A stretch of DNA of 64,000 nt from Streptomyces sp. GC420 (GTDB lineage: Bacteria; Actinomycetota; Actinomycetes; Streptomycetales; Streptomycetaceae). Below the pieces are notes generated by a model. The model ran no database searches. It was not told where the DNA came from and saw nothing but the letters and a program-made list of their open reading frames with translations. Made by a program: the position numbers and the translations under genes. The DNA lies in assembly GCF_009916105.1 (NCBI RefSeq), contig NZ_JAAAXQ010000003.1, forward strand, positions 24,142-88,141. The letters are read 5' to 3'. Positions within the stretch are counted from its first letter, which is position 1; each line of letters begins with the position of its first letter. Below are positions 1 to 53,835 of the stretch, piece by piece.

Positions 1-3000
1 AGAGCCAGTTGGTCCTCGCCCAGGGCGAGCGCGTCCGCGAGGTGCGCCCAAGAGCTCTCCTCGTCGTCGATGTCCAGCAGCCGGAACCTGCCGGGGTGTT
101 CCGTCCGGGCGGAACGGATCAGGCCCCAGACGGACGCGCCGGGGAGGCTTTCGACACTGTCCTCGCCACCGGTGGCGAGCGCGAGGCGGGTGAGGACCAC
201 CAGCGTGGATCCGGCCAGCGCGTCCTCGGCGAGGAACCGCTGGACCTGTGCCAGCACACGCGTGTCCGTGGCGAGCAGGTCGGGCTCGGCATCGACGAGA
301 TCGTCCACGCAGAGCACGAGGTGTCGGGGTGTCTCCCCCGCGAGGACGTCGTCGAGGGACGCGTAGAGCACACCCGCCTCGGAGAGGCGAGACGCCAGGC
401 CGTCCTTCGCGCCGAGAACTCCCCACCGCCCCCGATCGGTCTCCCGCTCGCCCGGCCGGACCGGCCGCCATGCCACTTCGTACAGCGACTGCCCGGGGCC
501 GCCGTGCGCCGACCGCAGTTGCCCGGGGCTCACCGGCCGGAACGTCAACGCCCCGATGTGCGCGATCCCGTGGCCGTGCTCGTCGGCGACCGCCACCGAC
601 ACGGCGGCCTCCCCGGCCGGGGAGACCCGGATCCGCACGGTCGGGCCGCACTCCCCGGCCGGTTCCACCCCGGACCACGAGAACGGCATCCAGCCCTGGT
701 CACCCGCGATCTCGATGACCCCGCCGGCCACCACCGCGTGCAGCACGGAGTCCATCAGCGCCGGATGCAGGGTGAACCCGGCACCGCCCGAACCGTCGGC
801 GGCCGTCGGCAGCGTGGCCGTGGCGAAGAGGTCGTCGCCGCGCTGCCACACCTCGCGCAGCCCGCGGAAGGCCGGGCCGTAGTCGAAACCCGCGTCCGCG
901 AAGGAGTCGTACAGGCTGTCGATGGGCAGGAGCTTCGCTCCGGCCGGTGGCCATACGGCGAGGGAGCCCGCTTCATCGGTCCCTCTGGCCGTCGGCAGTG
1001 TGCTTGGTGCGAGGCTCCCCGTGGCGTGCCGGGTCCAGTCGCCGACCGTTCGGTCGTCGTCGCCCGGGCGCCCGTACACGTCCAGGGTGCGGTGCCCCCT
1101 CTCGTCCGCCGCGCCGATGACGACCCGCACCCGCACGTCGCCCGGGTCGGGAAGGACCAGGGGGACTTCCAGGGAGAGTTCGTCGACAGCGGCGCAGCCG
1201 ACGAAGTCGCCCACCGACAGCGCCAGGTCCAGGTAGGCCGTCGCCGGTACGACGACCGAGCCGAACACGGTGTGATCGGCCAGCCAGTCGTGGGTCCGCA
1301 GGGACCACAGGCCGGTGAAAACCACCTCGCCGGTGCCGGGGTGTTCAACCACCGCGCCCAGCAGAGGGTGTTCCGACGCCGACAGGCCGGCGGAGGTCAC
1401 GTCCGCGGTACGCGTCCCGGCAAGGAAGTCCAACCAGTACCGCCGCCGTTGGAACGCGTACGTCGGAAGGTCCACCCGGCGGCGGGGCCCGAACAGGGCG
1501 TCCCAGTCCACGTCTCCGCCCCGGACGTGCAGGTGGGCCAGCGAGCCGACCAGCGTCTCCACCGCGCCCCGCCCCCGCCGCGCCGCCGACAGGATTACCG
1601 CGTCGTCCACGCCCTCGGCGGCGAAGGCCTCCTTGGTGATGCTCGTGAGGGTCGAGCCCGGGCCCAGTTCGAGGAAGACGTCGGTCCCGGCTGCCCGGGC
1701 GTACTCCACGGCGTCGCGGAAGCGCACGGGTTCGCGGATGTGCCGCACCCAGTGCGCGACGGACGTCAGTTCCCGGAGCGTGGCCTCGCGGCCCAGTCTG
1801 GTCGAGACGACCGGAACGGTCATGCGGCCCGCGGGGAGTTCGCCGATCGAGCTCGCGAACTCGTCCAGGACCGGGTCCATGAGCGGGGAGTGGAAGGCGT
1901 GGTCGACGTCGAGGAGTTTCGCCGATGTGCCGCCGGCGACGAGACGGTCCCGGAGGCCGAGGACCTCGTCGCGGATGCCCGAGACCACAACCGACTCCGG
2001 GCCGTTGACAGCGGCGACGCCGATCCGGTCGTACGGGCCGAAGAGGGCGCTCACCTGCTCTTCCGAGGCGCGTACCGCCAGCATTGCGCCCCGCTCGGCC
2101 ATCTGCATGGCTCGTCCGCGCGCGGCCACGAGCCGTGTCGCACTGTCGAGGTCCAGGGCGCCGGACACATGAGCGGCGGCGATCTCGCCGATGGAGTGGC
2201 CGATCAGGTGGCCCGGCTGCCCGCAGAACGTCACCATCAGCCGGTACCGACTGACCTCCAGCGCGAACAGGGCCGGCTGCGCGATGTCGGTCCGGCCCTG
2301 TCCGCCTTCCGCGGGCACGTCGGCGAGGAGCAACGGCTTCAGCGCGTAGGGGAGATGGGCGTCAAAGTGTGCGCAGACCTCGTCGAGGGTGCGCGCGAAG
2401 ACGGGGAAGGTTTCGTACAACTGCCGTGTGGTGTCCTCCCATTGGGTGCCCTGCCCGGGGAACAGAAAGGCAGTGCCGCCGACTTCACCGGCGACACCCC
2501 GTACGACCCCGGCGGACTCCGTGCCGTCGCGCAACGACGTGAGACCGAGCAGCAGTTCGTCCCGGTCGTGCCCCAGCACCACCGCGCGGTGCTCGAACCG
2601 CGACCGGCTTGATACCAACGACGCGCCGATGTCGGCGACTTCGGCATTCGGATCCGCCACGACGAAGTCGCGCAGTCTCTCCGCCTGCGCCCGCAGCGCG
2701 CCCTCCGAGCGTGCCGATACGACCCACGGCACCAAGCCGGTCAGGTGCTCGGAGGCGCAGGGCGCCACCTCTTCCTCGGGCGCCTCCTCCAGGATCAGGT
2801 GCGCGTTGGTGCCACTGGCCCCGAAGGCGGACACGCCCGCGCGCCGGGGCCGTCCCGGGACGCTCGGCCACTTCACGGTCCCGGTCAGCAGTTCCACCGC
2901 CCCCGCCGACCAGTCCACATGGGTCGTCGGGCGGTCCACGTGCAGTGTCTTGGGCATCGTCCGATGGCGCATCGCCATGATCATCTTGATGATCCCGCCG

Positions 3001-4162
3001 ACGCCCGCGGCCGCCTGCGTGTGCCCGATGTTCGACTTCAACGCTCCGAGCCACAGCGGCCGGTCGGGATCTCGGTCCTGTCCGTAGGTGGCCAGTACTG
3101 CCTGGGCCTCGATCGGGTCGCCCAGCGTCGTGCCGGTGCCGTGCGCCTCCACGACGTCCACCTCGCTCGCCCGGACCCGGGAGTTCGCCAACGCCGCGCG
3201 GATCACCCGCTGTTGGGACGGACCGTTCGGTGCGGTCAGCCCGTTGGACGCCCCGTCCTGGTTGATCGCCGAGCCCCGGATCAGCGCCCAGATCCGGCGT
3301 CCGTGGCGCCGCGCGTCCGACAGCCGCTCCAGGACCAGCATGCCCGCCCCCTCGGAGAAGCCGGTGCCGTCCGCCGCTTCGGCGAACGCCTTGCACCGGC
3401 CGTCCACCGCCAGGCCCCGCTGCCGTGACATCTCCCGGAACACCTGTGTCGTCGCCATGACGGTGACGCCCCCGGCCAAGGCCAGCGTGCACTCGCCCTG
3501 TCGCAGCGACTGCACCGCCTGGTGCACTGCCACCAGCGACGACGAGCACGCGGTGTCGGTCGACACCGCCGGGCCCTCCAGACCCAGCGTGTACGCCACG
3601 CGCCCGGAGGCCACGCTCAGCAGCGAACCGGTCTGCCCGTAGCCCGCGATGGCCTCGGGGGTGTGCAGGTGATTGCCGTACCCGAAGTACGCGATACCGG
3701 CGAAGACACCGGTGCTGCTGCCGTGCAGGTTCCGCGGGTCGATACCGGCCCGCTCCAGGGACTCCCACGAGGTCTCCAGGAGCAGCCGCTGCTGCGGGTC
3801 GGCGGCCAGCGCCTCGCGTGGGCTGATCCCGAAGAAGTCGGCGTCGAAGTCACCGGCGTCGTGCAGGAACCCGCCGGAGCGCGTGTAGCAGGTGCCGGGC
3901 CTGTCCGGATCCGGGTCGTACAGGCCCTCCAGGTCCCAGTCGCGGTCCTTCGGGAAGTTCGATATCGCGTCCCGGCCCGCCGCCACCAGCTCCCACAACG
4001 CCTCCGGGGACGCCACCCCGCCCGGGAAGCGACAGGCGACACCGACGATGGCGATGGGCTCCGCGGCGGCCTCCGTCAGCTCGTTCAGGCGCTGGCGGGT
4101 TTCGATCAGCTCGATCGACGTCCGCTTGAGGTAGTCGAGAACATCGGCGTCGTTGTCGTGTG

Positions 4163-4166
<4 letters not shown>
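1..4166 (-). CDS. Modular type I PKS, KS-AT-DH-..., 3' part outside the window
   Basis: This gene starts at ATG 4166 and runs off the left edge, so only about 1,388 residues are visible. A short coiled-coil docking segment (residues 1-35) is followed by a KS at about 36-460 with Cys in DTACSSSL and His in EAHGTGT and KSNIGHT. The AT (about 560-880) has GHSIGE and the HAFH specificity motif, which indicates malonyl-CoA. The DH (about 930-1210) keeps both catalytic residues, His in [11 protein letters not shown] and Asp in [11 protein letters not shown], so dehydration is expected. The visible sequence ends in the spacer that normally begins a KR. The start overlaps the stop of the upstream PKS gene (ATGA), which implies translational coupling. 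It should be the third PKS protein, after the loading protein and the module with a dead DH. Confidence 0.93.
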
Positions 4167-9625
<5,459 letters not shown>

Positions 9626-9647
9626 CAGGGCCTCCCCCACGAGTTGC

Positions 9648-12670
<3,023 letters not shown>

Positions 12671-12674
<4 letters not shown>

Positions 12675-13408
12675 CGCCAAGAGGTCAACAACCTCCGCAA
12701 TTCGTCGGGCGCCTTCGCGAAGTCGTGGTGCCCGCCCTCGACGACCCGGATGTCGACCGACTCCGCGTACCGATGCCATCCCTGCAGGTGGTCGAGGCTC
12801 ACGTCGGGGTCGTCCCGCCAGTGCAGTACGACGATGGGGCAGCCCACCGCGACCGGCTCCGCCCGGCGGTACCGACGCGCGGCGGCGTGATCGCGGAGCA
12901 GAACGGCCATGCCCATGTCGATCAGGTCCGGCCGCGGCTCGATGCCCCGGCCGCGGACGAACGCCTCGACCTCGGCGCGCAGTTCGGGCTCGGTCAAGGT
13001 GAGCATCCGGTCGCGTGCGGCATCGTGCGGCGCCGGCTGGCCCGACACGAAGAGACGGTCCGGACCGGGCAGACCCAGTTCGGCGAGCCGGAGCACGGTC
13101 TCGTAGGCGGGCAGCGCGCCCGCGCAGTGCCCGAAGAACGCGAACGGCCTGTCGAGCAGCGGTGCGAGCGGTTCGACCAGGTCGGCTGCGAGGTTCTCGT
13201 AGGTGTCGTAGTGGGGTTCGCCCAGCCGGTTCTCGCGGCCGGGGAACTGGAGGGGGCAGACCTCGATGTCGTCGAGGGCGGCCGGCCAGGCGCTGAAGGC
13301 CGATGCCCCGGTGCCGGAGTAGGGGAAGCAGAAGACGCGGGCGGAGTGGTCCGTGGACTGCGGCCGGACGAACCACGGGGACGTGGCGGCGGCGTAGCCG
13401 GATGTCAT
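12671..13408 (-). CDS. Stand-alone thioesterase/acyltransferase-fold protein with Cys nucleophile
   Basis: The 245-residue alpha/beta hydrolase matches type II thioesterases in length and in motifs such as FPYSGTGAS, PGREN and the C-terminal His in GGHHDF. The nucleophile elbow is GHCAG instead of the usual GHSxG, so the nucleophile is Cys (codon 13124-13126). Cys-nucleophile members of this fold include carrier-to-carrier aminoacyl shuttles such as SyrC and CmaE. Because the gene sits directly after a free carrier protein and a P450, I infer that it may move an oxidised aminoacyl group from the free carrier to the assembly line. Ordinary editing is the alternative. Its ATG start overlaps the P450 stop, and its stop overlaps the loading PKS start. 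Confidence 0.85.
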
Positions 13409-28277: not shown

Positions 28278-28282
28278 TGGAC

Positions 28283-34200: not shown

Positions 34201-36070
34201 TGGCGACGCCCTTGGGCTTGCCCGTGGAGCCGGAGGTGTACATCACGTACGCCAGATTGTCCGGCCTGATATGGAGGTCCGAGGCTTCGACAGCGGGGCC
34301 GCCGGGGGCGTCGAGGTGCAGGTCGTCGAGGCGGAGTACCGGCGGTCGGCACTCCGGCAGTGCCGCCGCCGTATCACGATCGGTCAGGACCAGCGCCGGA
34401 TCGGCCGAGGTGAGCAGGAGGTCGACTCGCGCCGTCGGATGATGGGGATCGATCGGCAGGTAGGCGCCACCCGCCTTGAGCACGCCCAGCTGCGCGACCA
34501 CCAGGTCCGCCGACCGCGGCAACGCCACGGCCACCACCTCGTCCGGCCCGACCCCGCGCTCGCGCAACACCGCGGCCAGCCGGCCGGCGCGGGCCTCCAA
34601 CTCCGCGTACGACAACACGGTTCGCCCGGCCACCACCGCTGTCGCGTCCGGGTTCCGCATCACCTGAGCGGTGACGAGTTCCGGTAGCGTCGCCTCGCGC
34701 ACCGGTGCCGCGGTCTCGTTCAACCGGGCCAGCCAGTCCCGCTCGGCGTCGGCGAGCACGTCCACCCCACCGAGCCGTACTCCGGGATCGGCGACCACCT
34801 GCCGCAGCACCCGCACATAGCGGTCGGCGAAACTCGCGGCCGTGGCGTGGTCGAACAGCTCCGTCGCGTACTCCAGCCGCCCGTACGCGCGCCCGGACGA
34901 CGCGTCCGGGATGATGTTGAAGAACAGGTCGAACTTCGCGGTGTCGGTACCCGTCGCGACGGGGGTGACCCGCAGACCGGGCATCTCGATCCCCGACCAC
35001 GCGAACTGCCAGGCCAGCATCACCTGGAACAGTGGTGAGTACGAGGTGGAACGCTCGGGGTTGAGCAGCCCCACCAGGCGCTCGAACGGCACGTCCTGGT
35101 TGTCGTACGCGGCCAGCGCCTTGTCCCGCACCTGATCCAGCAGATCGCCGAACGACGGGTTCCGCGACAGATCGACGCGCAGCACCCAGGTGTTGGCGAA
35201 GAATCCGATCAGATCGTCGAGTTGCTCGTCGGCGCGCCCCTCGATCGGGCTGCCGATCGTCAGGTCGTCGCCGGCGCCGAGGTGGTGCATCAGCACCGCA
35301 AGCGCCGCCTGAGCGACCATCGGTGCCGTGGCACCGCAGTCCGCTGCCAGCTTCTGGAGCCCCGACAGCAGCTCGGGTTCCAGCTCGAACGAGACATCTC
35401 CGCCGCGGTGGTCGGCGGCCGTCGGCCGCGGCCGGTCCAGGGGCATCTGCACCGGCTGCGGGACCCCCTCCAACTCCTCGCGCCAGTAGTCGAGTTGCTC
35501 TGCGGCGATGCTCTCCGGATCCTCTTCTTCGCCCAGCAGCTGCCGCTGCCACAGCGTGTAGTCCTTGTACTGCACCGGAAGCGGCTCCCACTCCGGCGCG
35601 TCTCCCTGATGACGAGCCGTGTACGCCGACACCAGATCGCGGAGGAACGGCGCCATCGACGCCCCGTCCGCGGCAATGTGGTGGAACACGAACACCAGCA
35701 CGTGCTCCCGCGGGGAGACCCGGAGGACGGCTGTCCGAAAGGGAAGCTCCGTGTCCAGGGAGAATCCCTCACGCGCGGCTTCTTGCGTCGCGGTGTCCAC
35801 CGCGTCCGCGGCCACGTCGACCACCCGGAACCGGAAGGCCGCCTCCTGCGGCGGCAGGACCCGCTGCTCCGGCGTGCCGTCCGCGTTCTCCACGATCAAG
35901 GTACGCAGACTCTCGTGCCGGGCCAGGACATCCCGCACCGCCGCGGCCAGGGCCGCGGTGTCCAGTTCTCCCTCCAGGCGCAGCACGAACGGGATGTTGT
36001 AGGTGGGGGACGGGCCTTCCAGGCGGTAGAGGAACCACAGCCGGGTCTGGGCGAAGGACAACGGGATCAT
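28283..36070 (-). CDS. Bimodular NRPS C-A-PCP-E-C-A-PCP (modules 3 and 4)
   Basis: The 2,595-residue protein contains C (HHIAADG), A3, PCP (ASGGDSIRS), epimerisation domain ([16 protein letters not shown]), C (HHTLFDG), A4 and PCP (LGGHSLLA). The E domain predicts a D residue at position 3. Pocket residues read D-V-F-C-I-G-A-Y-V-K for A3 and D-V-F-C-N-S-S-Y-A-K for A4, both related to A1 of the preceding NRPS. The shared DVF...Y pattern suggests related, possibly cyclic imino-acid substrates such as piperazate or hydroxyproline types. AGGAG eight bases before ATG 36070 overlaps the previous stop. Length and domain order equal those of the previous NRPS, which points to tandem duplication. Confidence 0.94.
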
Positions 36071-36081
36071 CGACGCTTCTC

Positions 36082-43869
<7,788 letters not shown>

Positions 43870-43914
43870 TCTCTGTCTCCAAATCGGCAGAACCACCAGG
43901 GAGCCATCCGCCAC

Positions 43915-45102
43915 TCAGCTCTGATCGAGTACCGCCAAGAGCTGGTCGTTGTAGAAGTCGTCGAAGGAGATCGCGCCCGACAGCGTCGAGAAATACCGGT
44001 CGATCAGCTCCTGGTGACCGACCAGGCTCCGCAACATCTCCGCCTGTCCCTCGGGCTTGAGCTCAGCCACGTTGAGCGCGCCCTGGTAGAAGTTGAGGAA
44101 GATATCGGTCAGGTCGTTCTCGTAGCGCTTCAGCGCCGCATGGAGCGCGGCGTCGTCGTGCAGTCCGTCCCCGATGTGCCCGGCGAGTGACTGGGCCTGT
44201 ATGAAGGCGTCGGTGATACCGCGGGCGGTGATGGAGTCCTTGTGGTGCACGGCGTCGCCGAGGAGCACCCACCCGGGTCCGTAGGCCTTGCGGAAGTAGT
44301 TCTCCTGGTGCCCCGTGCCGTACAGCTGCTCCACCCGGCTGCCCGCCGACATCCGCTCGTACAACTCGGGGGTCGTCGTGCGGACGGCTTCGAGGAAGGC
44401 GGGTTCCACCGCGGTACGGACCTCGGAGAACTCGCTCTGCGGGAAGTAGGCCATGATCAGCTTGAGGTCGTCGTTGGTGGGGATGACGCCGATCCAGCGC
44501 CCCGGCCGCTCGTACAGCTCGAAGTGCGCGGGAACCCCGGCCCAGTAGCTGTAGTAGGTGCAGGTCATCCGCGGGTGCTCGATGACGTTCGGGGCGCCGA
44601 CCTTGCGGGCCACCAGCGATCGCATGCCGTCCGCGCCGACGACCAGGCGGGCCCGTTCCGTCGCCTCGGCGCCACCGGGCGTCGTGTACCGGACCCCGAT
44701 GACCCGGTCGTCCTCGTACAGCAGATCGTGGACCGCGCAGGCTTCCCGGAACTCCACACCGGACGCCACGGCACCGCCCGCGAGGATCGGGTCGAGCACG
44801 AACCGCCTCGGCGCGTACGTGGTCCGGTGGCCGTCGACGGGCAGGGAGAAGCCGTCCAGCCGGACACCGGGCGCCTCGAAGCTCTGATGGTCGATCGGCT
44901 GACAGCCCGCGGCGCGGAGTTCGTCGAGCAGCCCCCACCGGTCGAGCAGCGCCACGCCCGGTTGATGGATGTAGTGCGAGGACAGGGTGTCCTGCGGGAA
45001 CCGCGCTTTCTCCAGGAGCAGGACGCGATACCCCTGCTGAGCGAACAGCATGGCCGCCGGCGAACCAGCACAACGGGCGCCTATGACAACTACGTCGTAC
45101 AT
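43915..45102 (-). CDS. FAD-dependent monooxygenase/oxidoreductase of the halogenase-like superfamily
   Basis: The 395-residue flavoprotein has an N-terminal dinucleotide site (VVIGARCAGS, then E at LLLEKARF) and the second FAD motif GDAVHHKDS near residue 285. It resembles p-hydroxybenzoate hydroxylase/geranylgeranyl reductase-type proteins. It lacks the WxWxIP motif of flavin halogenases, having RWIGVIP instead, so I prefer a hydroxylase or oxidase. Its gene sits between a free PCP and the first NRPS and follows a free adenylation enzyme, suggesting that it oxidises an amino acid while the acid is tethered to that PCP. N-hydroxylation, ring hydroxylation or desaturation are all possible. Confidence 0.8.
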   Translation of the reverse strand: MYDVVVIGARCAGSPAAMLFAQQGYRVLLLEKARFPQDTLSSHYIHQPGVALLDRWGLLDELRAAGCQPIDHQSFEAPGVRLDGFSLPVDGHRTTYAPRRFVLDPILAGGAVASGVEFREACAVHDLLYEDDRVIGVRYTTPGGAEATERARLVVGADGMRSLVARKVGAPNVIEHPRMTCTYYSYWAGVPAHFELYERPGRWIGVIPTNDDLKLIMAYFPQSEFSEVRTAVEPAFLEAVRTTTPELYERMSAGSRVEQLYGTGHQENYFRKAYGPGWVLLGDAVHHKDSITARGITDAFIQAQSLAGHIGDGLHDDAALHAALKRYENDLTDIFLNFYQGALNVAELKPEGQAEMLRSLVGHQELIDRYFSTLSGAISFDDFYNDQLLAVLDQS

Positions 45103-45114
45103 GGCCCTCTCTTA

Positions 45115-45345
45115 CTATTGGGTTACCGTGCCCAGGGATTCGATGTACGCGGAAATCGACGCCACCGTCGGGTTGAGGAACATCTGATCCATCGGAACTT
45201 CGACGCCCAGTTCCTCGATAAATTCCCCCTGTATTTTGGCCATGATCACAGACTGGCCGCCCAGGGCGAAGAAATTGTCGTCGACCGATATGTCATCGCG
45301 TCGGAGTTCCCGGCACCAAATGGTGCGTACGCTGTCGGCAATCAT
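45115..45345 (-). CDS. Free peptidyl carrier protein
   Basis: The 76-residue single carrier domain has the phosphopantetheine Ser in FFALGGQSVIM. A TTG at 45369 is also in frame, but AGAGGG five bases upstream supports ATG 45345. It lies between a free adenylation enzyme (35 bases upstream) and a flavoenzyme (12 bases downstream), so the three genes probably form one load-and-oxidise unit that delivers its acid to the NRPS. Confidence 0.9.
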   Translation of the reverse strand: MIADSVRTIWCRELRRDDISVDDNFFALGGQSVIMAKIQGEFIEELGVEVPMDQMFLNPTVASISAYIESLGTVTQ

Positions 45346-45379
45346 CACAGCCCTCTCGCTCGTAATCAAGGCCGGTCGT

Positions 45380-46966
45380 CTATTCCGTCCGCCCTCTGCC
45401 GGCGTACTGCTTTCGCAATTCTTCGGCCAGCGCCGCCCGGTCCGCTTTCCCGTGCGGGCTCAACGGAATGCGCGGGATACTGAGGAATCTGGCCGGGACC
45501 ATGTTCCGTGGCAGCGTCTCGAGGAGGCGGGCGCGCACGTCGTTCTCGGCGAGGTCGTCGCCCGCCGGCTCGATGAACGCGATCAGCTCGGTCTCACCGG
45601 AGGCGGTGTGGCCGACCACCACGGCGGCCTGCCGGACCCCGGCCAGCCTGCCCAGCGCGCGTTCGACATCGGCCGGGTCGATGCGCATGCCCCGCACCTT
45701 GACCTGCGCGTCCATCCGGCCGGCGACGACGAGGTCTCCCTCCTCGTTCACCTGGCCGCGGTCGCCCGTGCGGTACAGCCGCCGCGGCTCGCCGTCGACC
45801 TCGACCGTCGTGAACCGCTGGGACTCGGGCCCTGTGCCGCCCAGGTATCCCGCGCCGACACTGGCCCCGGAGATGCAGATCTCGCCGTACTCCCCCGCCG
45901 CGACACCGCGCATCCGCTCGTCGAGCAGGTGGATGTCGGTGTTGTGGGCCGGCCTGCCGACCGGTGCGATGTCGTGGTCGCCGGGCCGGTAGTCGGCAAG
46001 ATCGAACGACGTCGCGACGTCCGTGCACTCGGCGACGCCGTACTGGTGCAGGAGGGTGCAGGTGTTTCCCTCGCGCCGGGCCCAATCCAGGAGCCGTTCC
46101 ACATGCAGCGGCTCACCGCCGAACAGCATGTAGTCGAGCCGGGTGAGCGCGTCGCCGCCCCGCGCTGTCTCCCAGTCCACCAGCACGTACAGCGTGCTGG
46201 AGGCGCAGTGCACCACGCGTATCTCGTGCTGGGTCAGCATGCGGTAGGCCATCGCGGCGTCGAAGTTCCGGCTCGCCATCAGGTACTGGGTGGCACCGCA
46301 GAACAACGGCATCATCAGGCTGCGCTGGGAGAGGTCGAACCCGAACGCGCTGACGACCAGGTTGTGCGACCCGGCATGCAGGCCGTACTCCAGCGTCAGC
46401 CAGTTCAACAGGTTGAACCAGCCCTCGTGCCGCACCGCGGTCACCTTCGGCGTACCGGTCGACCCGGACGTGAAGACCGCGTAGCACACGTCGTCCCCGG
46501 TGACCCGGACGTCAGGACCGGTCATCGGGAGTCCTTCGAGGTGCTCGGACAGCCGCTGGAGATCGACGACCTCGACGGCCGCCGACTCGACCAGCCCGGC
46601 CGTCGCCGGGGAGGCCACGATCAAGGCGAGATCGGGGACCTGCCCCAGCAGCAGCCGGAGCCTCGCCGCCGGATAGGAGGGGTCGAACGGTACGTAGGCC
46701 GCGCCCGCCTTCAGCGTGCCGAGGACGGCGACGACCATGTCGAGCGAGTAGTCGAGGCAGACACCGACCTTCGCGCCCCGGCCGTGTCCGCGCGCCGTGA
46801 GGAAGTGCGCGAACCGGTTGGCCCGCGCGTTCAGCTGTGCGTACGTCATCTGCCGCCCGGCGCAGAAGACGGCGACGGCGTCGGGGGTGGCTTCCGCGTG
46901 CGCCTCGAACTGCTTGTGGACGACGGGCGCCGAGGGCAGGGCGACCCGCTTTCCCTGGAGGATCAT
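45380..46966 (-). CDS. Free-standing NRPS adenylation enzyme
   Basis: The 528-residue ANL-superfamily enzyme carries A3 (FTSGSTGTPK), A4/A5 (FGFDLSQ, HQYGVAE), A7 (YRTGDRG), A8 and the A10 Lys (SPHGKADR). Asp at the FD position indicates an alpha-amino acid substrate. My reading of the pocket is D-L-R-H-L-G-Q-D-V-K, which I cannot match to a known amino acid. GGAG seven bases before ATG 46966 sets the start. The adjacent PCP is its likely partner. It may load the first residue of the peptide, which would bring the total to six. Confidence 0.9.
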   Translation of the reverse strand: MILQGKRVALPSAPVVHKQFEAHAEATPDAVAVFCAGRQMTYAQLNARANRFAHFLTARGHGRGAKVGVCLDYSLDMVVAVLGTLKAGAAYVPFDPSYPAARLRLLLGQVPDLALIVASPATAGLVESAAVEVVDLQRLSEHLEGLPMTGPDVRVTGDDVCYAVFTSGSTGTPKVTAVRHEGWFNLLNWLTLEYGLHAGSHNLVVSAFGFDLSQRSLMMPLFCGATQYLMASRNFDAAMAYRMLTQHEIRVVHCASSTLYVLVDWETARGGDALTRLDYMLFGGEPLHVERLLDWARREGNTCTLLHQYGVAECTDVATSFDLADYRPGDHDIAPVGRPAHNTDIHLLDERMRGVAAGEYGEICISGASVGAGYLGGTGPESQRFTTVEVDGEPRRLYRTGDRGQVNEEGDLVVAGRMDAQVKVRGMRIDPADVERALGRLAGVRQAAVVVGHTASGETELIAFIEPAGDDLAENDVRARLLETLPRNMVPARFLSIPRIPLSPHGKADRAALAEELRKQYAGRGRTE

Positions 46967-47045
46967 CAACTGACTCCGATGTGACGGGTGTCCGATCGCG
47001 CGACGAACTCCGCAGGGCGGTCCGGCACCTCTGGGCGGTGCGCCG

Positions 47046-47756
47046 CTAGGCGATGCGCCGATCGGCGGCGTCGAGCACCTGGGTCACCCACTTGTCGACG
47101 GGCAGACCGTGCGCGGCGGCCGCTTTCGAGTAGTAGTCCAGTTGGCCGGCGGACAGCTCGATGGTGAGCGTGGTGACCTTCCGCCGACGCTTGTCGGCGC
47201 CCGCCGACTCGGCCGGCCGGGGTGCCTCTTGCTTGTCGTCGCCGCTTGCCGGCGGGATGTCGATCTGGTGGCGCTGCTCGGCCAGACCGGCGCGAACCGC
47301 CCTGCGGAGTTCGTTGCGCGACCACTTGCGCTGTTCGGCTTTCCGCAGCCAGTAGTCCTGCTCCGGCGGCGACAGGCGGGTCACCTCGGCGTGGTGGGCG
47401 AAGCTGAGACCGTCCCGCCTGCGGTGGTGCTCGAACCGCCGGGCCACCCACGCGTAGTTGCGCAAGGTCTGGTAGTCGAGCCCTGTTCTCTCGATCGCCT
47501 CGCGGTAGCGCCGCAGCCCGTAGGTGGATTCCCCGAAGATCAGCCAGTCGGCGAGCCACCACGCCGAGGAGTTCGTGAATTCGCGCAGGCTGGCCCCGAT
47601 CCGTTCCCAGGACCGCTGCGACAGGTCCGGCGGGAAGACCATCCCCGTCTGCTGCACCTTTGCCTGATTCCCGACGATGGGCAGAACCACATCGCGCTGC
47701 GCGGCCTCATCACCAGTGCCCTTCGGCCCCGCCTCGTGACTGCTCGCGGTCCTCAC
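47046..47756 (-). CDS. LmbU/NovE-family transcriptional regulator
   Basis: The 236-residue protein resembles the LmbU-NovE-HrmB group of cluster-situated activators: SSAWWLADWLIFGE, then LDYQTLRNYAWVARRFE, then a basic helical region and a C-terminal segment (TLTIELSAGQLDYYSKAA) like a small DNA-binding or dimerisation fold. It starts at GTG 47756 with a G-rich site six bases upstream. It is the only clear pathway-specific regulator in the window and lies second in the large NRPS operon, so it is the leading candidate to bind the repeated 18-bp dyad. That link is inference. Confidence 0.82.
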   Translation of the reverse strand: MRTASSHEAGPKGTGDEAAQRDVVLPIVGNQAKVQQTGMVFPPDLSQRSWERIGASLREFTNSSAWWLADWLIFGESTYGLRRYREAIERTGLDYQTLRNYAWVARRFEHHRRRDGLSFAHHAEVTRLSPPEQDYWLRKAEQRKWSRNELRRAVRAGLAEQRHQIDIPPASGDDKQEAPRPAESAGADKRRRKVTTLTIELSAGQLDYYSKAAAAHGLPVDKWVTQVLDAADRRIA

Positions 47757-47813
47757 AGAACGCCCCCCACAACCTTCATTCGCGTCAGCTCCTCCCGCTG
47801 GTCCGGCCGGCGT

Positions 47814-48029
47814 TCAGTCCGCCGCCATGGCCTCCCGCAGGCTCCTCGGGCGCAGGTCGGTCCAGTTCTGCTCGACGTACTCCAGGCATTCGGTCCTGGC
47901 CGCCTCGCCGAAGACCACGCGCCAGCCTCCGGGCACCTCGGCGAATACCGGCCACAGGGAGTGCTGGTCCTCGTCGTTGACCACGACGTAGAAGCGGCCG
48001 TTCTCATCATCGAAAGGGTTCGTGCTCAC
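47814..48029 (-). CDS. MbtH-like protein
   Basis: The 71-residue protein has the full MbtH signature: [25 protein letters not shown] and [11 protein letters not shown]. MbtH-like proteins bind NRPS adenylation domains and are often essential for their solubility or activity. AAGGA eight bases before GTG 48029 fits the family start (STNPFDD) better than the GTG at 48035. It is the first gene of the NRPS operon, about 100 bases from operator site 3. Confidence 0.96.
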
Positions 48030-48127
48030 TGCCACCGTCCTTAACGGTCACGAAGTGACTCGGGATGGGAAAACAGGGTGACTCGAGAGAGGAAATCGCC
48101 AGAGCCGGGCGAGTTCACCGACGGCGT

Positions 48128-48424: not shown

Positions 48425-49336
48425 ATGGCCTTGAAGTCAGAATCCGAGTACGCGACAGATCCCGACGACGACACACGGCGGTCGCTGTTGCGGCACATGC
48501 TGGTGGCGAGGGGCATCGACGAGGAGGGTCGCCAACTCCAGAAGCAGGGCGCGCTCGACCTCTGGCTTTCCTGCCAGGGGCAGGAGGCCGCGCAGGTGGG
48601 CTCCGCGCTCGCCGTGGGCCCGGCCCCGACCGTCTTCCCCAGTTACCGCGAGCACGCGGTCGCCCTCCTACGGGGCGTGACGCCGGACGAACTGTTCGCA
48701 CAGTGGGCCGGCCGCACGTTCTGCGGCTGGGACCCGCGCCGGCTGCGGTTCTTCCCCTACACGTTGGTCCTGGCCGCGCAGACGCTGCACGCCGTCGGCT
48801 ACTCGATCGGGCAACGGCTCCAGGGGCTGGAGGACTTCGTCGTCATGTACATAGGCGACGGCGCCACCAGCGAGGGCGACATGTCGGAGGCGATGAACCT
48901 CGCCGCCGTCGAGTCGGCGTCCGTGCTGTTCGTCTGCCAGAACAACGGCTGGGCCATCTCGAAACCGGCCGAGGAGCAAATGCACACCTCGCTGGCCGAA
49001 CGCGCCCGGGGTTTCGGGATCGAGTCCGCCCGGATCCCGGGCCAGGACCCGGAGACCGTCTTCTCGGCCTGCTCCCGGGCCGCCGCCCACGTCCGCGGGC
49101 AGCGGGCGCCGTACCTCGTCGAGATCCAGGTGGGGCGTATCCACGGTCACTCGACCTCCGACGCCCAGGAGGTCTACCGAACCGCCGAGGACATCGAGCG
49201 GACCAGGGCCGCGGATCCGGTGACCGCGTACGCGGCGCGGCTGAGCGGCCTGGGACTGGTGGACACCGTGTGGCTGGACGCCGTTCACGCCGAAGTGCGG
49301 GAGCTGCGCCTGCGGTTGATGAAGGAGTACGCGTGA
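48425..49336 (+). CDS. TPP-dependent dehydrogenase E1 alpha-like subunit
   Basis: The 303-residue protein belongs to the pyruvate/branched-chain 2-oxoacid dehydrogenase E1 alpha family and has the TPP motif GDGATSEGD...NN (residues about 140-175). It should pair with the next gene product and decarboxylate a 2-oxo acid, or accept a ketol unit, onto TPP. No strong ribosome binding site precedes ATG 48425. It overlaps E1 beta by one base (TGATG) and starts a six-gene cassette that lacks E3 and the E2 acyltransferase domain. This points to biosynthesis, not central metabolism. Confidence 0.92.
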   Translation: MALKSESEYATDPDDDTRRSLLRHMLVARGIDEEGRQLQKQGALDLWLSCQGQEAAQVGSALAVGPAPTVFPSYREHAVALLRGVTPDELFAQWAGRTFCGWDPRRLRFFPYTLVLAAQTLHAVGYSIGQRLQGLEDFVVMYIGDGATSEGDMSEAMNLAAVESASVLFVCQNNGWAISKPAEEQMHTSLAERARGFGIESARIPGQDPETVFSACSRAAAHVRGQRAPYLVEIQVGRIHGHSTSDAQEVYRTAEDIERTRAADPVTAYAARLSGLGLVDTVWLDAVHAEVRELRLRLMKEYA

Positions 49337-50316
49337 TGAGCACCGTACGCTCCGCCGGCCTGGCGGAATCGATCAACGCGGCCCTCGCCGACCTGCTCGA
49401 ACAGGAACCGAGACTGCTGCTGCTCGGCGAGGACATCGGACGCCTGGGCGGTGTGTTCCGGGTGACCCGAGGCCTCAGGGAACGTTTCGGCGGGGACCGG
49501 GTGCGCGACGCGCTGCTGGCCGAGTCCACCATCGTCGGCCAGGCCGTCGGCATGGCGATGAGCGGGCTGGTGCCGGTCTGCGAGATCCAGTTCGACGGGT
49601 TCACCTATCCCGCGGTGAACCAGCTGGTGACCCAGGCGGCCCGGATCGGCGGCCGGTGGAACGGACGGATCAGCCCGAGCCTGGTGGTGCGAATCCCGAC
49701 CGGCGGCGGGTTCCGGGGCGTCGAGCACCACAGCGAGTCCAACGAGGCGCTCTTCGCCCGCGTCCCGGGGCTCTCGGTGGCCTGCCCCTCCACCGGCGAG
49801 GACGCCGACCAGATCCTGCGGTACGCGGTGACGCTCGGTTCGCCCGTGGTGATGTACGAGCCGATCCGCCTGTATTGGCGGCGGAACACCCCCGCCCGCG
49901 ACCCGGAGCCGGCGAGGTCGCCGACCGCGGCCCGGGTGGTGCGGCGTGGCACGGACCTGACGATCGCCACGTACGGCGCGATCACCCACGAGGTGCTGGA
50001 AGCGGCGCACACGCTCGGCCCCGATGTCGACGTCGAGGTGGTGGATCTGCGCTGGGTGGCCCCGCTCGATCTGGACACGGTCCTTGAGTCCGTCGCCCGC
50101 ACCGGGCGACTGCTCATCGTGCACGAGGGGTCGAAGGACGTCGGCATCGGTGCCGAGATCGCCGCGGCCGTGGCCGAACACGGCTTCGACGCGCTGAGGG
50201 GGCCGGTCCGCCGGCTGGCGCCCGCCCGCCGCGCCTATCCCCCGGCGGACTTCGAGAAGGACTACCTGATCGGTGTCCAGGAGATCAAGGACGAGGTGCT
50301 GGTGATGACGGAGTGA
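49336..50316 (+). CDS. TPP-dependent dehydrogenase E1 beta-like subunit
   Basis: The 326-residue protein matches the transketolase central and C-terminal domains of E1 beta, with GEDIG near residue 34, FDGFTYPA and a C-terminal EGSKDVGIGAEI segment. It forms the second half of the E1 heterotetramer. The start overlaps the E1 alpha stop and the stop overlaps the lipoyl gene start (GTGA), so stoichiometric coupled translation is likely. Confidence 0.93.
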   Translation: MSTVRSAGLAESINAALADLLEQEPRLLLLGEDIGRLGGVFRVTRGLRERFGGDRVRDALLAESTIVGQAVGMAMSGLVPVCEIQFDGFTYPAVNQLVTQAARIGGRWNGRISPSLVVRIPTGGGFRGVEHHSESNEALFARVPGLSVACPSTGEDADQILRYAVTLGSPVVMYEPIRLYWRRNTPARDPEPARSPTAARVVRRGTDLTIATYGAITHEVLEAAHTLGPDVDVEVVDLRWVAPLDLDTVLESVARTGRLLIVHEGSKDVGIGAEIAAAVAEHGFDALRGPVRRLAPARRAYPPADFEKDYLIGVQEIKDEVLVMTE

Positions 50317-50561
50317 GCGATTCCCTCGTGGACATGCACGTCCCCGGCTTCGGGCACGGCCTCGCCGAGGCCCTGCTGATCGAGTGGGTCGCCGGTGTGG
50401 GCGACCGGGTCGAGCGGGGGGACGCCGTCGCGGTCGTCGAGACCGACAAGGCCAGCACGGAGATCGTGGCGGAGCGCGACGGCCGGGTCGCGGCCCACTG
50501 CGCCACGGCCGGCACGGTCCTCAAGTCCGGTGAGGTGCTGTACCGGTTGGCGGCCGAGTAG
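50313..50561 (+). CDS. Lipoyl-only E2-like carrier protein
   Basis: The 82-residue protein is a single biotinyl/lipoyl domain with the modification Lys in ETDKASTE. Normal E2 proteins are about 400 residues with a peripheral-binding and a catalytic acyltransferase domain; those are missing here. The domain would pick up the acyl group from E1 and must hand it to something other than CoA via an E2 core, most simply the ACP encoded next. Comparable E1/lipoyl pairs feed C2 units to carriers in the naphthyridinomycin pathway (from memory). Confidence 0.92.
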   Translation: MSDSLVDMHVPGFGHGLAEALLIEWVAGVGDRVERGDAVAVVETDKASTEIVAERDGRVAAHCATAGTVLKSGEVLYRLAAE

Positions 50562-50604
50562 CCCCCGGGATCCGATGAGCCAGTCATCCGAACGGAGAAG
50601 GAAC

Positions 50605-50853
50605 ATGAGCGACATCGAAAGCCGTATCGCGGACACCATGCTGGCCAAACTGCGCGAGCGCGACCCGTCGCTGGGCCCCGACGACCTCGCCCGGCCGGTC
50701 GGCGAGGTCGACCTCGACTCCCTCGACCTGGTCGAGCTGCACCAGCGCCTGGAGCGCGAGCTCCAGGTCAAGGGCGACCTCAAGGAGACCGCGGGCTTCG
50801 CCTTCCTGGACGAGTTCACCGCCTACTTCGTGAAGCTGGCGAGCCGGGGATGA
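50605..50853 (+). CDS. Discrete acyl carrier protein
   Basis: The 82-residue ACP has the phosphopantetheine Ser in EVDLDSLDLVE. GGAGAAGGA immediately precedes ATG 50605. It lies 43 bases after the lipoyl gene and overlaps the KAS III gene (ATGA). It is presumably the acceptor for the acyl group released from the lipoyl domain and the donor or acceptor partner of KAS III. Confidence 0.9.
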   Translation: MSDIESRIADTMLAKLRERDPSLGPDDLARPVGEVDLDSLDLVELHQRLERELQVKGDLKETAGFAFLDEFTAYFVKLASRG

Positions 50854-51788
50854 GCGCGGGCATCGTCGACATCGCCACCGCGAAGCCGGGCCGGAGGATC
50901 GACAACGACCACTTCGCGTCGATCGGACTCACCGACGAGTGGATCCGGCGCCGCAGCGGCATCGGATCCCGCTCCTGGCTGCCGGACGAGACCCCGCTGG
51001 CGGAGGTGGCGGCGGAGGCCTGCGCGCCGATCGTGACCAGGACGGACGCCCCCTCCTCGATCGACGCCCTGATCGTCGTCAGCACCTCGGTGCGGCAGCG
51101 CATCCCGGGTATCGCGCAGAAGGTGGCCCAGCTCGCCGGGCTGGGGCCCTCGGTTCTGGCCCTCGACATGAACGCGGCCTGCTGCGGCTTCGTCTACGGC
51201 CTGGTCACCGGGCTCTCCTTCTGCGACGCCGGACAGGCGCGGTCGGTCCTGGTGTGCTCGGTGGAGGCCATGTCCCGGATGGTGGACCGCGCGGACCGGC
51301 AGACGGCCTGCCTCTTCGGCGACGGCTCCGCGGCCGTCCTGCTGGAGAACCGCGCGGAGTTCACGGGCTTCTGCCGGGTCGCCGGCTGCGACGGCTCCCA
51401 GGAGGGGCTCATGCGGGAGACCGAGGCGGGCGGCATCCATCTCGACGGGATGCAGGTGTACGACCGCGCCGTGCGCCGTATGTCCGAATCGGCGCAGTAC
51501 CTCTTCGACCACGGCCCCGCGCCGACCGTCCTGGTCGGCCACCAGGCCAACAGCCGCATCCTGGAACAGGTCCGCAGCTTCAGCGCCCATCTCGACGTGC
51601 CTTTCGTGAACCGCATCGAGAACTCCGGGAACACCTCGTCCGCCTCGATCCCGCTGGCGTTCGCCGCGGAACTGGACGCCGGCTGTCTCCCCGCCGCCGG
51701 CCGGCTCGGGGCCGTGGCCTACGGCGCCGGCGAGGCGTGGGGCGGTGTCGCGGTGGACTACCGGCTGCCGGCCGTCCCGGCCCCCTGA
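50850..51788 (+). CDS. 3-oxoacyl-ACP synthase III (FabH-like)
   Basis: The 312-residue thiolase-fold enzyme carries the KAS III triad: Cys in MNAACCGF (near residue 112), His in GHQANSR and Asn in ENSGNTSSAS. It condenses or transfers an acyl group. In this context it may extend the E1-derived acyl-ACP by two carbons or act as an acyltransferase. Followed by an MDR protein, the set recalls pathways that make branched or long alkylmalonyl-CoA extender units, which use KAS III and a crotonyl-CoA carboxylase/reductase. Confidence 0.93.
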   Translation: MSAGIVDIATAKPGRRIDNDHFASIGLTDEWIRRRSGIGSRSWLPDETPLAEVAAEACAPIVTRTDAPSSIDALIVVSTSVRQRIPGIAQKVAQLAGLGPSVLALDMNAACCGFVYGLVTGLSFCDAGQARSVLVCSVEAMSRMVDRADRQTACLFGDGSAAVLLENRAEFTGFCRVAGCDGSQEGLMRETEAGGIHLDGMQVYDRAVRRMSESAQYLFDHGPAPTVLVGHQANSRILEQVRSFSAHLDVPFVNRIENSGNTSSASIPLAFAAELDAGCLPAAGRLGAVAYGAGEAWGGVAVDYRLPAVPAP

Positions 51789-51832
51789 GCGCGCCGAGGA
51801 CCCGGGAACGTACTCGATCACAGGAGGTTGTC

Positions 51833-53005
51833 ATCCACGCACCAGAAGCCTGGGTCCTGCGCTCCGGCGCGACGGCCGGCTCCCACGACGGCGGCCCCGG
51901 CCGCGCGCTGCGCCGCGGCCGGTTCTCCTTCGGCCCTCTGGAGGAAGGCGAGGCGCTGGTGGAGCCGATCCTCGGCTCCTGGGAGGCCAACATGGACCAC
52001 GCGCTGACCCGTTCACCGATCGACGTCTGCAGCAGCCGCGGCGAGGACGCGGTGGTCCTGGGCAACCTGGGCGTGGTGCGCGTGCTCGAGGTGAACGCGG
52101 GCGGGCGGGAGGCCCGGGTCCGTGAAGGGGACCTGTGCCTGCTCATGCCGTTCGGCAAGCTCGACCGCTACGACTACGCCGAACTCGCCTACGCCTACGA
52201 CTGCCCCGGCACCATCGGGCTGCTGGCCAAGCGGACCAAGCTGGACGCACGCCTGCTCCTGCCGGTCCCGGACGGCACGGCGTACTCGCTGCCCCAGTGG
52301 GCCACGTACGGGCGGTACTTCACCGCCTGGGACAACTGGCACAAGGCGTACGGCTGTTGGCGGACGCAGGTCGCCGACGACGATCCCGTCGGCCACTTGG
52401 TGTTCGGGTGGGGCGGCGGCGTGGCCTTCGCCGAGCTGCTGCTCGCCAAGCGGGCGGGGTTCCGGGTGGCGATGACGGCGGGCTCGGACGAGCGGCTTGC
52501 CTTCCTGCGGCAGAACGGCATCACGCCGGTCGACCGCCGCCGGTTCCCCGACCTCTCCCTGCCCGGCCGGCGGGAACGCGCGGACCGGGAACGGCACCGG
52601 CGGCGCCGGACGTCGGTCGAGGGCTTCCTGGAGCTCGTCGACGACCTCAGCGACGGCCACGGGGCCTCGATCTTCGTGGACAACATCGGCGAGCCCCTGT
52701 ACGACGTCACCCTCACGGCGCTGGCCCGCGAGGGCGTCGTCACCACATGCGGCTGGAAGGCGGGGATGCGCGTGTCGCATCTGCGGGGAGCCGAGGCCAT
52801 CAGCCGGCACATCCATGTGAACACCCATGTGTGGCGGCTGCCGGACTCACCGGACATCCGGGACTTCATGGAGGCCGAGGGCTGGATAGCGCCGAAGGGA
52901 TCCGACGTGATCTACGACTTCGACCAGGTGCCCGAGCTGGCCGACGACTACGCGAACGGCAGGATCGGCTCGTACTTCCCGCTGTACCGCGTGAACCCTC
53001 TCTGA
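51833..53005 (+). CDS. MDR-family reductase, crotonyl-CoA reductase-like; no canonical start codon
   Basis: The protein of about 390 residues belongs to the medium-chain dehydrogenase/reductase family. It has a nucleotide-binding segment VFGWGGGVAFAE and, before it, WATYGRYFTAW, which resembles the crotonyl-CoA carboxylase/reductase region, but it is shorter and divergent. A perfect AGGAGG (51822-51827) is followed in frame only by GTT, GTC and ATC, with no ATG, GTG or TTG at normal distance. I place the start at ATC 51833; GTC 51830 or CTG 51785 are alternatives, and a base error is possible. It may reduce, or reduce and carboxylate, the enoyl product of the cassette. Confidence 0.75.
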   Translation: MHAPEAWVLRSGATAGSHDGGPGRALRRGRFSFGPLEEGEALVEPILGSWEANMDHALTRSPIDVCSSRGEDAVVLGNLGVVRVLEVNAGGREARVREGDLCLLMPFGKLDRYDYAELAYAYDCPGTIGLLAKRTKLDARLLLPVPDGTAYSLPQWATYGRYFTAWDNWHKAYGCWRTQVADDDPVGHLVFGWGGGVAFAELLLAKRAGFRVAMTAGSDERLAFLRQNGITPVDRRRFPDLSLPGRRERADRERHRRRRTSVEGFLELVDDLSDGHGASIFVDNIGEPLYDVTLTALAREGVVTTCGWKAGMRVSHLRGAEAISRHIHVNTHVWRLPDSPDIRDFMEAEGWIAPKGSDVIYDFDQVPELADDYANGRIGSYFPLYRVNPL

Positions 53006-53019
53006 CCTGCCCCGGCGGC

Positions 53020-53835
53020 TCATTCGCGCTCGCGGAGTTCCAGGGTGCAGCACTTGGCACCGCCGCCGCCCTTGAGCAGTTCCGTCATGTCGACGCCGAT
53101 GGGCTCGAATCCGCGTTCCCGGAGCTGGTCGGGAAGCCGCTCGGCCTGTTGCGCGACCATCACGTGAAGGCCGTCGGACACGGCGTTGAGACCGAATACC
53201 GCCGCGTCGGACGCGTCCGCGATAATGGCGTCCGGAAAACGCTCCTCAAGCAGTTCCCTGCTTTCCGGAGAGAACGCCTCGGGGTGGTACATGATTTCGT
53301 TGTCGTCGAGCACGGCAAGAGCCGTGTCGAGATGGTAGTACCTGTCGTCGACCAGCGTCAGACCCAGTACGGGCTTTCCGAAGAATTCCGCTGCCTCGTC
53401 GTGCGCATTGGGCTCGCTGCGGAATCCGGTGCCCGCCAGGATGACGTCGCCCATGTACAGGAAGTCACCCTCGCCCTCGTTGACGGACTCGGCCTGCCGG
53501 GCTTCCCACCCGCGCGCCCGGAACCAGTCCAGATAGGCCGGGGACTCCTCCACGCGCTGTTCGCAACGGAAGCGGGCGACCAGCGCACGGCCGTCCACGA
53601 CCGTCGCGCCGTTGGCGGAGTACACCATGTCCGGCAGTCCGGCGACGGGTTCGATCAGTTCGACGGTGTGCCCCAGGTCGGCCAGCAGGTCGTGCAGCGT
53701 CTTCCACTGGGCGAGTCCGCGCTCCGTGGATGTGGGGCGCGAAGGGTTCATCCACGGGTTTATGGAATAGGAGACTTCAAAGAATGTCGGCTCGCACATG
53801 AGGTAATGCCGCGAACGAGCTTGCCGCTTCTCCAC
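53020..53835 (-). CDS. Dimethylarginine dimethylaminohydrolase (DDAH)-like protein
   Basis: The 271-residue guanidino-modifying enzyme has the Cys nucleophile near the C-terminus (GAKCCTLELR), His in YYHLDTA and an acidic residue in NEGEGDFL. DDAHs convert methylated arginines to citrulline; relatives act on arginine or other amidino compounds. It converges on the MDR gene with only 14 bases between stops. AGGAG six bases before GTG 53835 fixes the start, and operator site 4 lies 32 bases further upstream, which suggests co-regulation with the cluster. It could make a guanidine-derived precursor or be a resident arginine-metabolism gene. Confidence 0.88.
   Translation of the reverse strand: MEKRQARSRHYLMCEPTFFEVSYSINPWMNPSRPTSTERGLAQWKTLHDLLADLGHTVELIEPVAGLPDMVYSANGATVVDGRALVARFRCEQRVEESPAYLDWFRARGWEARQAESVNEGEGDFLYMGDVILAGTGFRSEPNAHDEAAEFFGKPVLGLTLVDDRYYHLDTALAVLDDNEIMYHPEAFSPESRELLEERFPDAIIADASDAAVFGLNAVSDGLHVMVAQQAERLPDQLRERGFEPIGVDMTELLKGGGGAKCCTLELRERE

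Follow-up and report, generated by a model that had tools for sequence, protein, structure and literature searches.

A six-gene cassette that may build a branched alkylmalonyl extender unit beside an azinothricin-type gene cluster in Streptomyces sp. GC420

The six-gene cassette

The window analysed here is a stretch of 64,000 nucleotides from contig NZ_JAAAXQ010000003.1 of Streptomyces sp. GC420, and our subject is a cassette of six genes at 48425-53005 on its forward strand (Table 1). The genes encode the alpha and beta subunits of the E1 component of a 2-oxo acid dehydrogenase, a stand-alone lipoyl domain, a discrete acyl carrier protein (ACP), a relative of beta-ketoacyl-ACP synthase III (KAS III) and a divergent member of the medium-chain dehydrogenase/reductase (MDR) superfamily. 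These limits agree with those of an earlier first-pass annotation, which had also described the first five genes as overlapping or nearly abutting: the overlap is 1 nt between E1 alpha and E1 beta, 4 nt between E1 beta and the lipoyl gene and 4 nt between the ACP and KAS III genes. Short gaps precede the ACP gene and the MDR gene, the other junctions overlapping by 1 to 4 nt. The arrangement is not a product of chance: its order recurs in other genomes, and in all 31 relatives that possess both E1 genes these share 1 or 4 nt. Together the six genes probably provide an extender unit, a branched alkylmalonyl group carried by the ACP of the cassette, for use by a module with the acyltransferase (AT) motif VPGH in the neighbouring polyketide synthase (PKS)/nonribosomal peptide synthetase (NRPS) cluster.

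Both E1 proteins have complete E1 domains according to Pfam, with a motif for thiamine pyrophosphate (TPP), and the best solved relatives of E1 alpha are the T. thermophilus 2-oxo acid dehydrogenase (1um9), followed by bacterial pyruvate dehydrogenase and branched-chain 2-oxo acid dehydrogenase. The lipoyl protein was confirmed to lack the core of an E2 acyltransferase, as Pfam gives neither an E2 core (PF00198) nor an E3 among the six genes; the five PF00198 matches of the genome lie on five other contigs and none on the cassette contig. Its lipoyl lysine, Lys46, is invariant in all 17 sequences aligned (the window and 16 relatives, from 32 available including the window). The ACP gave no Pfam match at 1e-3, and its D38-S39-L40-D41 is invariant in 18 of 18 aligned sequences (the window and 17 chosen relatives). 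In the KAS III, Cys111, His231 and Asn261 are invariant in all 22 aligned sequences. The protein scores 173 bits with the NCBIfam fabH model (TIGR00747), below the cut-off of 292, and as judged by its sequence it is a KAS III relative and not an ordinary FabH.

Table 1. Features of the 64,000-nt window, the cassette first. KS, ketosynthase; DH, dehydratase; KR, ketoreductase; C, condensation; A, adenylation; E, epimerization; PCP, peptidyl carrier protein; MT, methyltransferase; TE, thioesterase; CCR, crotonyl-CoA carboxylase/reductase.
Feature	Position	Strand	Details
E1 alpha of 2-oxo acid dehydrogenase	48425..49336	+	303 aa; PF00676 (E1_dh) 5.5e-59; TPP motif GDGATSEGD...NN
E1 beta	49336..50316	+	326 aa; PF02780 (Transketolase_C) 1.2e-32, PF02779 (Transket_pyr) 3.6e-32
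Stand-alone lipoyl domain	50313..50561	+	82 aa, GTG start; PF00364 (Biotin_lipoyl) 6.3e-16; lipoyl Lys46 (ETDKAS)
Discrete ACP	50605..50853	+	82 aa; Ser39 in LDSLD
KAS III	50850..51788	+	312 aa; PF08545 (ACP_syn_III) 1.6e-21, PF08541; Cys111-His231-Asn261 intact
Divergent CCR-like MDR	51833..53005	+	390 aa; ATC start; ADH_zinc_N 1.5e-8; likeness from predicted fold and pocket positions
PKS module KS-AT-DH-KR-ACP	4163..9640	-	AT motif GHSQG...VPGH; likely extender user
PKS loading module	9648..13376	-	KSQ (GQSSS), AT with YASH
Next PKS module, AT with HAFH	1..4100, limits approximate; AT at 2474-1560	-	AT motif
NRPS gene	36082-43914	-	three condensation-type and two A stretches; read as C-A-PCP-E-C-A-PCP
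NRPS gene	28283-36070	-	three condensation-type and two A stretches; read as C-A-PCP-E-C-A-PCP
NRPS gene	23292-28652	-	C-A-MT-PCP-TE
FAD oxidoreductase, PCP, A domain, regulator-like and MbtH-like genes	43915..48035	-	order of plyE-plyA, artE-artA

The last gene

The first-pass annotation gave the last gene a plain MDR reduction. It is probably no plain reductase, since its predicted fold is nearest to the crotonyl-coenzyme A (CoA) carboxylase/reductases (CCRs) and the positions of their CO2 pocket appear to carry identical or conservatively replaced residues. The genome yields 35 matches to the CCR family model TIGR01751, of which three exceed the cut-off; the MDR is not among the 35, and searches of PDB sequences with the MDR did not single out a CCR. 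The three matches above the cut-off are true CCR genes elsewhere in the genome (G000:C144, C273 and C24; L051-L053). A structure model of the MDR from an alignment of 53 sequences (the window, 6 loci and 46 database proteins) reached a pLDDT of 88, a first model from 24 close relatives having been discarded at a pLDDT of 51. With the accepted model, ranks 1-21 in Foldseek were all carboxylase/reductases, with E-values from 9e-23 to 5e-19, and the next match followed at 2e-18.

In the published account of the Kitasatospora CCR, the CO2 pocket is N81/F170/E171/H365 (PMC10966969). The first of these aligns with N53 of the MDR (53 of 53 sequences), F170 to Y122 (52 Tyr, one Phe), E171 to D123 (51 Asp, two Glu) and H365 to H332 (53 of 53); Tyr at the Phe position occurs also in one of the true CCRs of the genome (L052). 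All four positions are paired by hhalign, and the first three by all four MAFFT modes applied to the family. The pairing of H332 with H365 was returned by two of the four modes and by one further alignment, the other two modes being off by 12 columns, and that of N53 with N81 was lost when the window alone or only close relatives were aligned. It is likely that the MDR carboxylates, as the model and the alignments suggest. The CCR-like predicted fold and the apparent CO2-pocket residues, despite the miss by the family model, are new here compared with the published proposals, as are the start codon, the mycobacterial five-gene version and the Amycolatopsis cluster described below. The MDR family has at least 341 matches.

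By comparison with its relatives, the MDR gene starts with ATC (AUC; 51833-51835 in the window). The same codon is found in 24 of 25 sequences, that is, the window and 23 of 24 relatives (L008-L028, L030, L036 and L049), the exception being L049 with ATG in this position. GGAGG precedes the start in all 25, 5 nt upstream in the window. After the preceding stop, 14 of the 24 relatives offer no in-frame ATG, GTG or TTG ahead of this codon, and the window and the nine other relatives with ATC could formally start upstream of it. The codons after the ATC encode conserved residues with silent changes, and 34 of the 41 distant homologues listed (P0081-P0121, 56-68% identical) have Met at the ATC position or one residue earlier. 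Close database copies are often annotated at least 13 residues short, and two of them (P0073 and P0076) begin just past the pocket asparagine.

Published counterparts

The exact combination of genes, for which the first-pass annotation named no precedent, is already in print as orf5-orf10 of the polyoxypeptin (PMC3943440) and aurantimycin (PMC5031334) clusters. The polyoxypeptin A cluster was published in 2014 from Streptomyces sp. MK498-98 F14, and its orf5-orf10 encode the same six proteins (377, 312, 82, 82, 326 and 303 aa), the last five equal in length to those of the window. They adjoin plyA-E in a cluster that has, like the window, a VPGH AT and a KSQ loading module. For the Orf5 record of the producer (P0008), identity to the window MDR is 87%, with 96% of the MDR covered; the published Orf5 has 377 aa, and the ATC start of the window gives 13 residues more. 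The authors proposed a 2-(2-methylbutyl)malonyl extender, possibly ACP-bound, and cited a feeding study that points to Ile; Orf5 was regarded as a homologue (46%) of the CCR TgaD, and the E1/E2 proteins were assigned to beta-keto reduction (PMC3943440). The aurantimycin cluster, published in 2016 from S. aurantiacus JA 4570 and represented here by locus L014, has the same six genes in the same order, with 82-88% identity to the window in the five core proteins and 84% in the MDR, and its AT is also of the VPGH type. There a Val-derived 2-(2-methylpropyl)malonyl unit was proposed, Orf5 was given the ketoreduction, no CCR was recognised in the cluster, and a mycobacterial protein is listed in the gene table as homologous to the ACP (PMC5031334).

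The gene set has thus already been described and its enzyme logic proposed only, and the window cassette is, by sequence, a further example. As far as the published tables go, the gene content and order around the cassette also match both clusters. The two role assignments for Orf5 and for the E1/lipoyl genes contradict each other. None of orf5-orf10 is among the mutants named in the accessible parts of the two papers, which are orf1, orf11, plyH, plyC, D, Q, I, S, Y, N and plyM for polyoxypeptin, where the abstract claims 12 (PMC3943440), and artG, artB and artX for aurantimycin (PMC5031334); the mutant of plyN (an aminotransferase) showed no effect (PMC3943440). A homologous set in the auroramycin producer is suggested by homologue names in the gene tables of these two papers. 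Beyond these two azinothricin papers the cassette was not found in the literature searched, which left subscription journals largely aside and did not cover supplements.

Other known systems resemble it in part. The KSIII-3-hydroxyacyl dehydrogenase-CCR operon of germicidin/divergolide, which serves isobutylmalonyl-CoA, likewise obtains its branched alkylmalonyl unit with a KAS III and a carboxylase/reductase, but it is CoA-bound and has a dehydrogenase, and its description in the polyoxypeptin paper names no E1, lipoyl protein or ACP (PMC3943440). For diperamycin, of the same product family, a single CCR was proposed to supply hexylmalonyl-CoA at the same PKS position, and the available text mentions no such cassette (PMC10888640).

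Distribution and the VPGH acyltransferase

Relatives were collected by a KAS III scan over one genome per species, which gave 43 loci, and the neighbouring genes were then sought by tblastn; the genome of the window (L001-L003) is excluded from the counts of relatives and L018 from the MDR alignment. The same gene order elsewhere, a check suggested by the first-pass annotation, was found with all six genes at 22 of the 43 loci, counting L018, in which the MDR frame runs on, and L049, whose ACP was recognised by its reading frame and alignment. Nine loci, all mycobacterial, have the first five genes without the MDR, and in every one of them a short-chain dehydrogenase (SDR) follows the KAS III gene (eight by clustering of reading frames, L029 by its downstream frame). 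No PKS family was detected among ten proteins scanned around the cassettes of L034 and L035, two of which are the SDRs. The rest consist of L023, cut by a contig end, L025 with ACP, KAS III and MDR only, nine distant KAS III genes standing alone (L040-L048, 30-33% identical) and the fragment L050, with no cassette at these distant genes or the fragment. In a sample of the phylum the KAS III was found, among the matches listed and with five candidates scored per genome, in one of 396, the genome of the window itself. Distances among the five core proteins correlate, most closely for E1 beta and KAS III (r 0.99 over 30 loci and the window, 0.92 without mycobacteria) and least for E1 alpha and the lipoyl protein (r 0.62), as would be expected of a unit travelling together.

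Some of these loci have peculiarities of their own. The MDR frame of L018 (from 9455) extends past the usual end to 862 aa and may be frame-shifted or fused. In the mycobacterial SDRs (L029, L031-L035 and L037-L039) the usual YxxxK was not seen at the expected spacing. At L021 (G014) the cassette stands beside a weak MbtH-like remnant only, with no AT in the 21 kb examined, and is perhaps left over from a lost cluster. The KAS III of Herpetosiphon-group genomes (L040, L043, L044, L045, L047 and L048) is 30-33% identical, with no other cassette genes around it in the stretches examined.

The VPGH AT of the window was searched in 28 genomes, comprising the 24 non-mycobacterial cassette genomes and four of the nine mycobacterial ones. 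A copy at 73-88% identity is present in 18 of the 24 and in none of the four (in two pieces in G003 and G004), reading VPGH in 17 and GQGH in one, an Amycolatopsis. Neighbours of the ply/art type surround the cassette at 17 of the 24 loci, and all 17 of these genomes have the AT; the eighteenth genome with the AT is that of L023, whose locus is too short to show neighbours. The AT is absent from all six cassette genomes without such neighbours. It lies on the cassette contig in 12 of the 18 genomes, 39-49 kb from the KAS III gene. Four of the six genomes without a copy carry, among ordinary ATs, an odd AT motif within about 17 kb of the cassette: VPSH in G005 and G021, VAGH in G023 and FASH, which is close to the ordinary YASH, in G024. 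In G014 and G020 no such motif was found near the cassette in the stretches examined. From this co-occurrence it is likely that the VPGH AT module is the user of the extender. The VPSH ATs (G005:C9:40746-41642, L092; G021:C23:218887-219786, L086 and L094) belong to two large modular PKS clusters, and the usual GHSxG was not found in them.

The Amycolatopsis oliviviridis cluster (L025, L070; G018) keeps ACP, KAS III and MDR, and the genes for E1 alpha, E1 beta and the lipoyl protein are absent. The best match to E1 alpha elsewhere in that genome is at 38-40% identity, compared with 54-88% for the cassette E1 alpha in three other genomes. Because the last three genes persist there without the others, the E1 and lipoyl proteins would act upstream of KAS III. 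This single case looks like a natural dissection, in which E1 and the lipoyl domain supply an acyl group that ACP, KAS III and MDR use, and in which an altered acyl source seems to accompany the altered AT motif.

Proposed route and alternatives

The first-pass annotation read the cassette as a carrier-directed acyl supply set with an extender as its likely product, and this is supported by the gene content and by the proposals published for the homologues. A 2-oxo acid derived from Ile or Val would be decarboxylated by E1 alpha and beta, and these would place its acyl group on the free lipoyl domain. In a step that needs no CoA, the group would then go on to the cysteine of KAS III, either straight away or by way of the ACP. 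Direct transfer from the lipoyl domain to KAS III, with malonyl-ACP as partner, and the order lipoyl, ACP, KAS III are equally possible. KAS III, with its Cys-His-Asn intact, would extend the acyl group with malonyl-ACP to a branched 3-oxoacyl-ACP, and ketoreductase and dehydratase activities, lying outside the cassette, would be supplied by fatty acid synthesis. The MDR would then reduce and carboxylate the enoyl thioester to alkylmalonyl-ACP, as its predicted fold and pocket positions suggest, and the VPGH AT would take up this unit, in keeping with its co-occurrence with the cassette.

A more general proposal, which we put forward tentatively as somewhat short of an even chance, is that the first five genes form a portable module, present in antibiotic clusters and, joined by an SDR, also in mycobacteria. 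It would be a CoA-free 2-oxo acid dehydrogenase in which the free lipoyl domain hands the acyl group from E1 directly to KAS III and the dedicated ACP, and the antibiotic clusters would add to it a minimal carboxylase/reductase that is specific for the carrier, fixes CO2 and falls outside the CCR family model. Were the hand-off CoA-free, 2-oxo acid dehydrogenases would gain a new outlet, in which E1 and a lipoyl domain feed carrier-bound synthesis directly, and the module could be transferred in engineering work to supply branched extender units. If the proposal is true, the MDR family would count among the CO2-fixing reductases as a divergent branch. To judge by the mycobacterial version, the module may also serve purposes other than making antibiotics, and the conflicting published roles of Orf5 and the E1/lipoyl genes become testable by this comparison.

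There are observations that weigh against the CoA-free step. The KAS III alignment was inspected at positions which we take to be the CoA-binding positions of FabH, whose loss was sought as a sign of CoA-free transfer, and they are mostly kept. The Amycolatopsis version, if functional, would moreover work without a lipoyl protein. Both fit the alternative that the E1 pair and the lipoyl protein use a chromosomal E2/E3 and yield ordinary branched acyl-CoA for KAS III, the cassette only raising the supply, and the five E2 cores elsewhere in the genome could serve in this. We nevertheless hold it to be rather unlikely, as a lipoyl domain of its own would be superfluous to a cassette that relied on a chromosomal complex, and the lipoyl protein, ACP and KAS III travel together, with correlated distances, across actinomycetes and mycobacteria. 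That the product is a branched starter instead of an extender would agree with KAS III enzymes usually starting chains, and with the mycobacterial loci, where an SDR follows and no PKS family was seen among the proteins scanned, but the loading module of the window has KSQ and a methylmalonyl-type YASH AT, and the odd AT motif stands in the next module, which makes a starter quite improbable. Transfer of a C2-ketol or hydroxyethyl group from a ketose or pyruvate, an option of the first-pass annotation, has its models in NapB/NapD, E1-like enzymes of a biosynthetic cluster that transfer a C2-ketol to an ACP, and in the E1-like AviB1/AviB2 and Pau11/Pau12, to which such a role has been assigned in other clusters. 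AviB1/AviB2 serve a biosynthetic cluster as the cassette E1 pair seems to do; the NapB/NapD and AviB1/AviB2 systems are, however, not known to have a KAS III or CCR-like partner, and these two enzymes would have no evident role in ketol transfer. The related clusters, as far as their published accounts go, use or are proposed to use Ile- or Val-derived branched units, and ketol transfer is thus disfavoured and seems very improbable.

The extender could also be made as proposed with the MDR only reducing the enoyl (or 3-keto) intermediate, the carboxylation being left to an acyl-CoA carboxylase or to one of the three true CCRs of the genome. We consider this unlikely, with evidence on both sides. 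TIGR01751 misses the MDR, CCR-independent alkylmalonyl synthesis has been published (PMC5187497), and the available aurantimycin account assigns Orf5 to ketoreduction in a cluster without a CCR (PMC5031334). The fold ranking and the CO2-pocket positions point instead to a carboxylating MDR, and so do the likeness of Orf5 to TgaD claimed by the polyoxypeptin authors (PMC3943440) and the CCR gene proposed for the extender of the closely related diperamycin (PMC10888640).

Surrounding gene cluster

Its domains and motifs identify the window as a PKS/NRPS cluster of the azinothricin type that includes a module with a VPGH AT (Table 1). In the NRPS gene at 28283-36070 a single PCP exceeded the threshold, and the E domains of this gene and of the one at 36082-43914 are read from the third condensation-type stretch. 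In the group of genes before the cassette, the FAD oxidoreductase, PCP and A domain were named by Pfam, and the regulator-like and MbtH-like genes by their position and the published gene tables.

To the left of the window the same contig has a fourth AT with the motif YASH. According to motifs or Pfam it also carries a C-A-PCP NRPS, an ornithine/lysine N-oxygenase, a match to PF04299, which we take to be of the piperazate-synthase type, a match to the C-terminal part of L-proline 3-hydroxylase and a radical-SAM/B12 protein. On the reverse strand at 53020-53835, a gene of the dimethylargininase type, which scores 428 bits with NF045659 (cut-off 300), adjoins the cassette, and such a gene lies near the cassette also in L008, L009 and L016.

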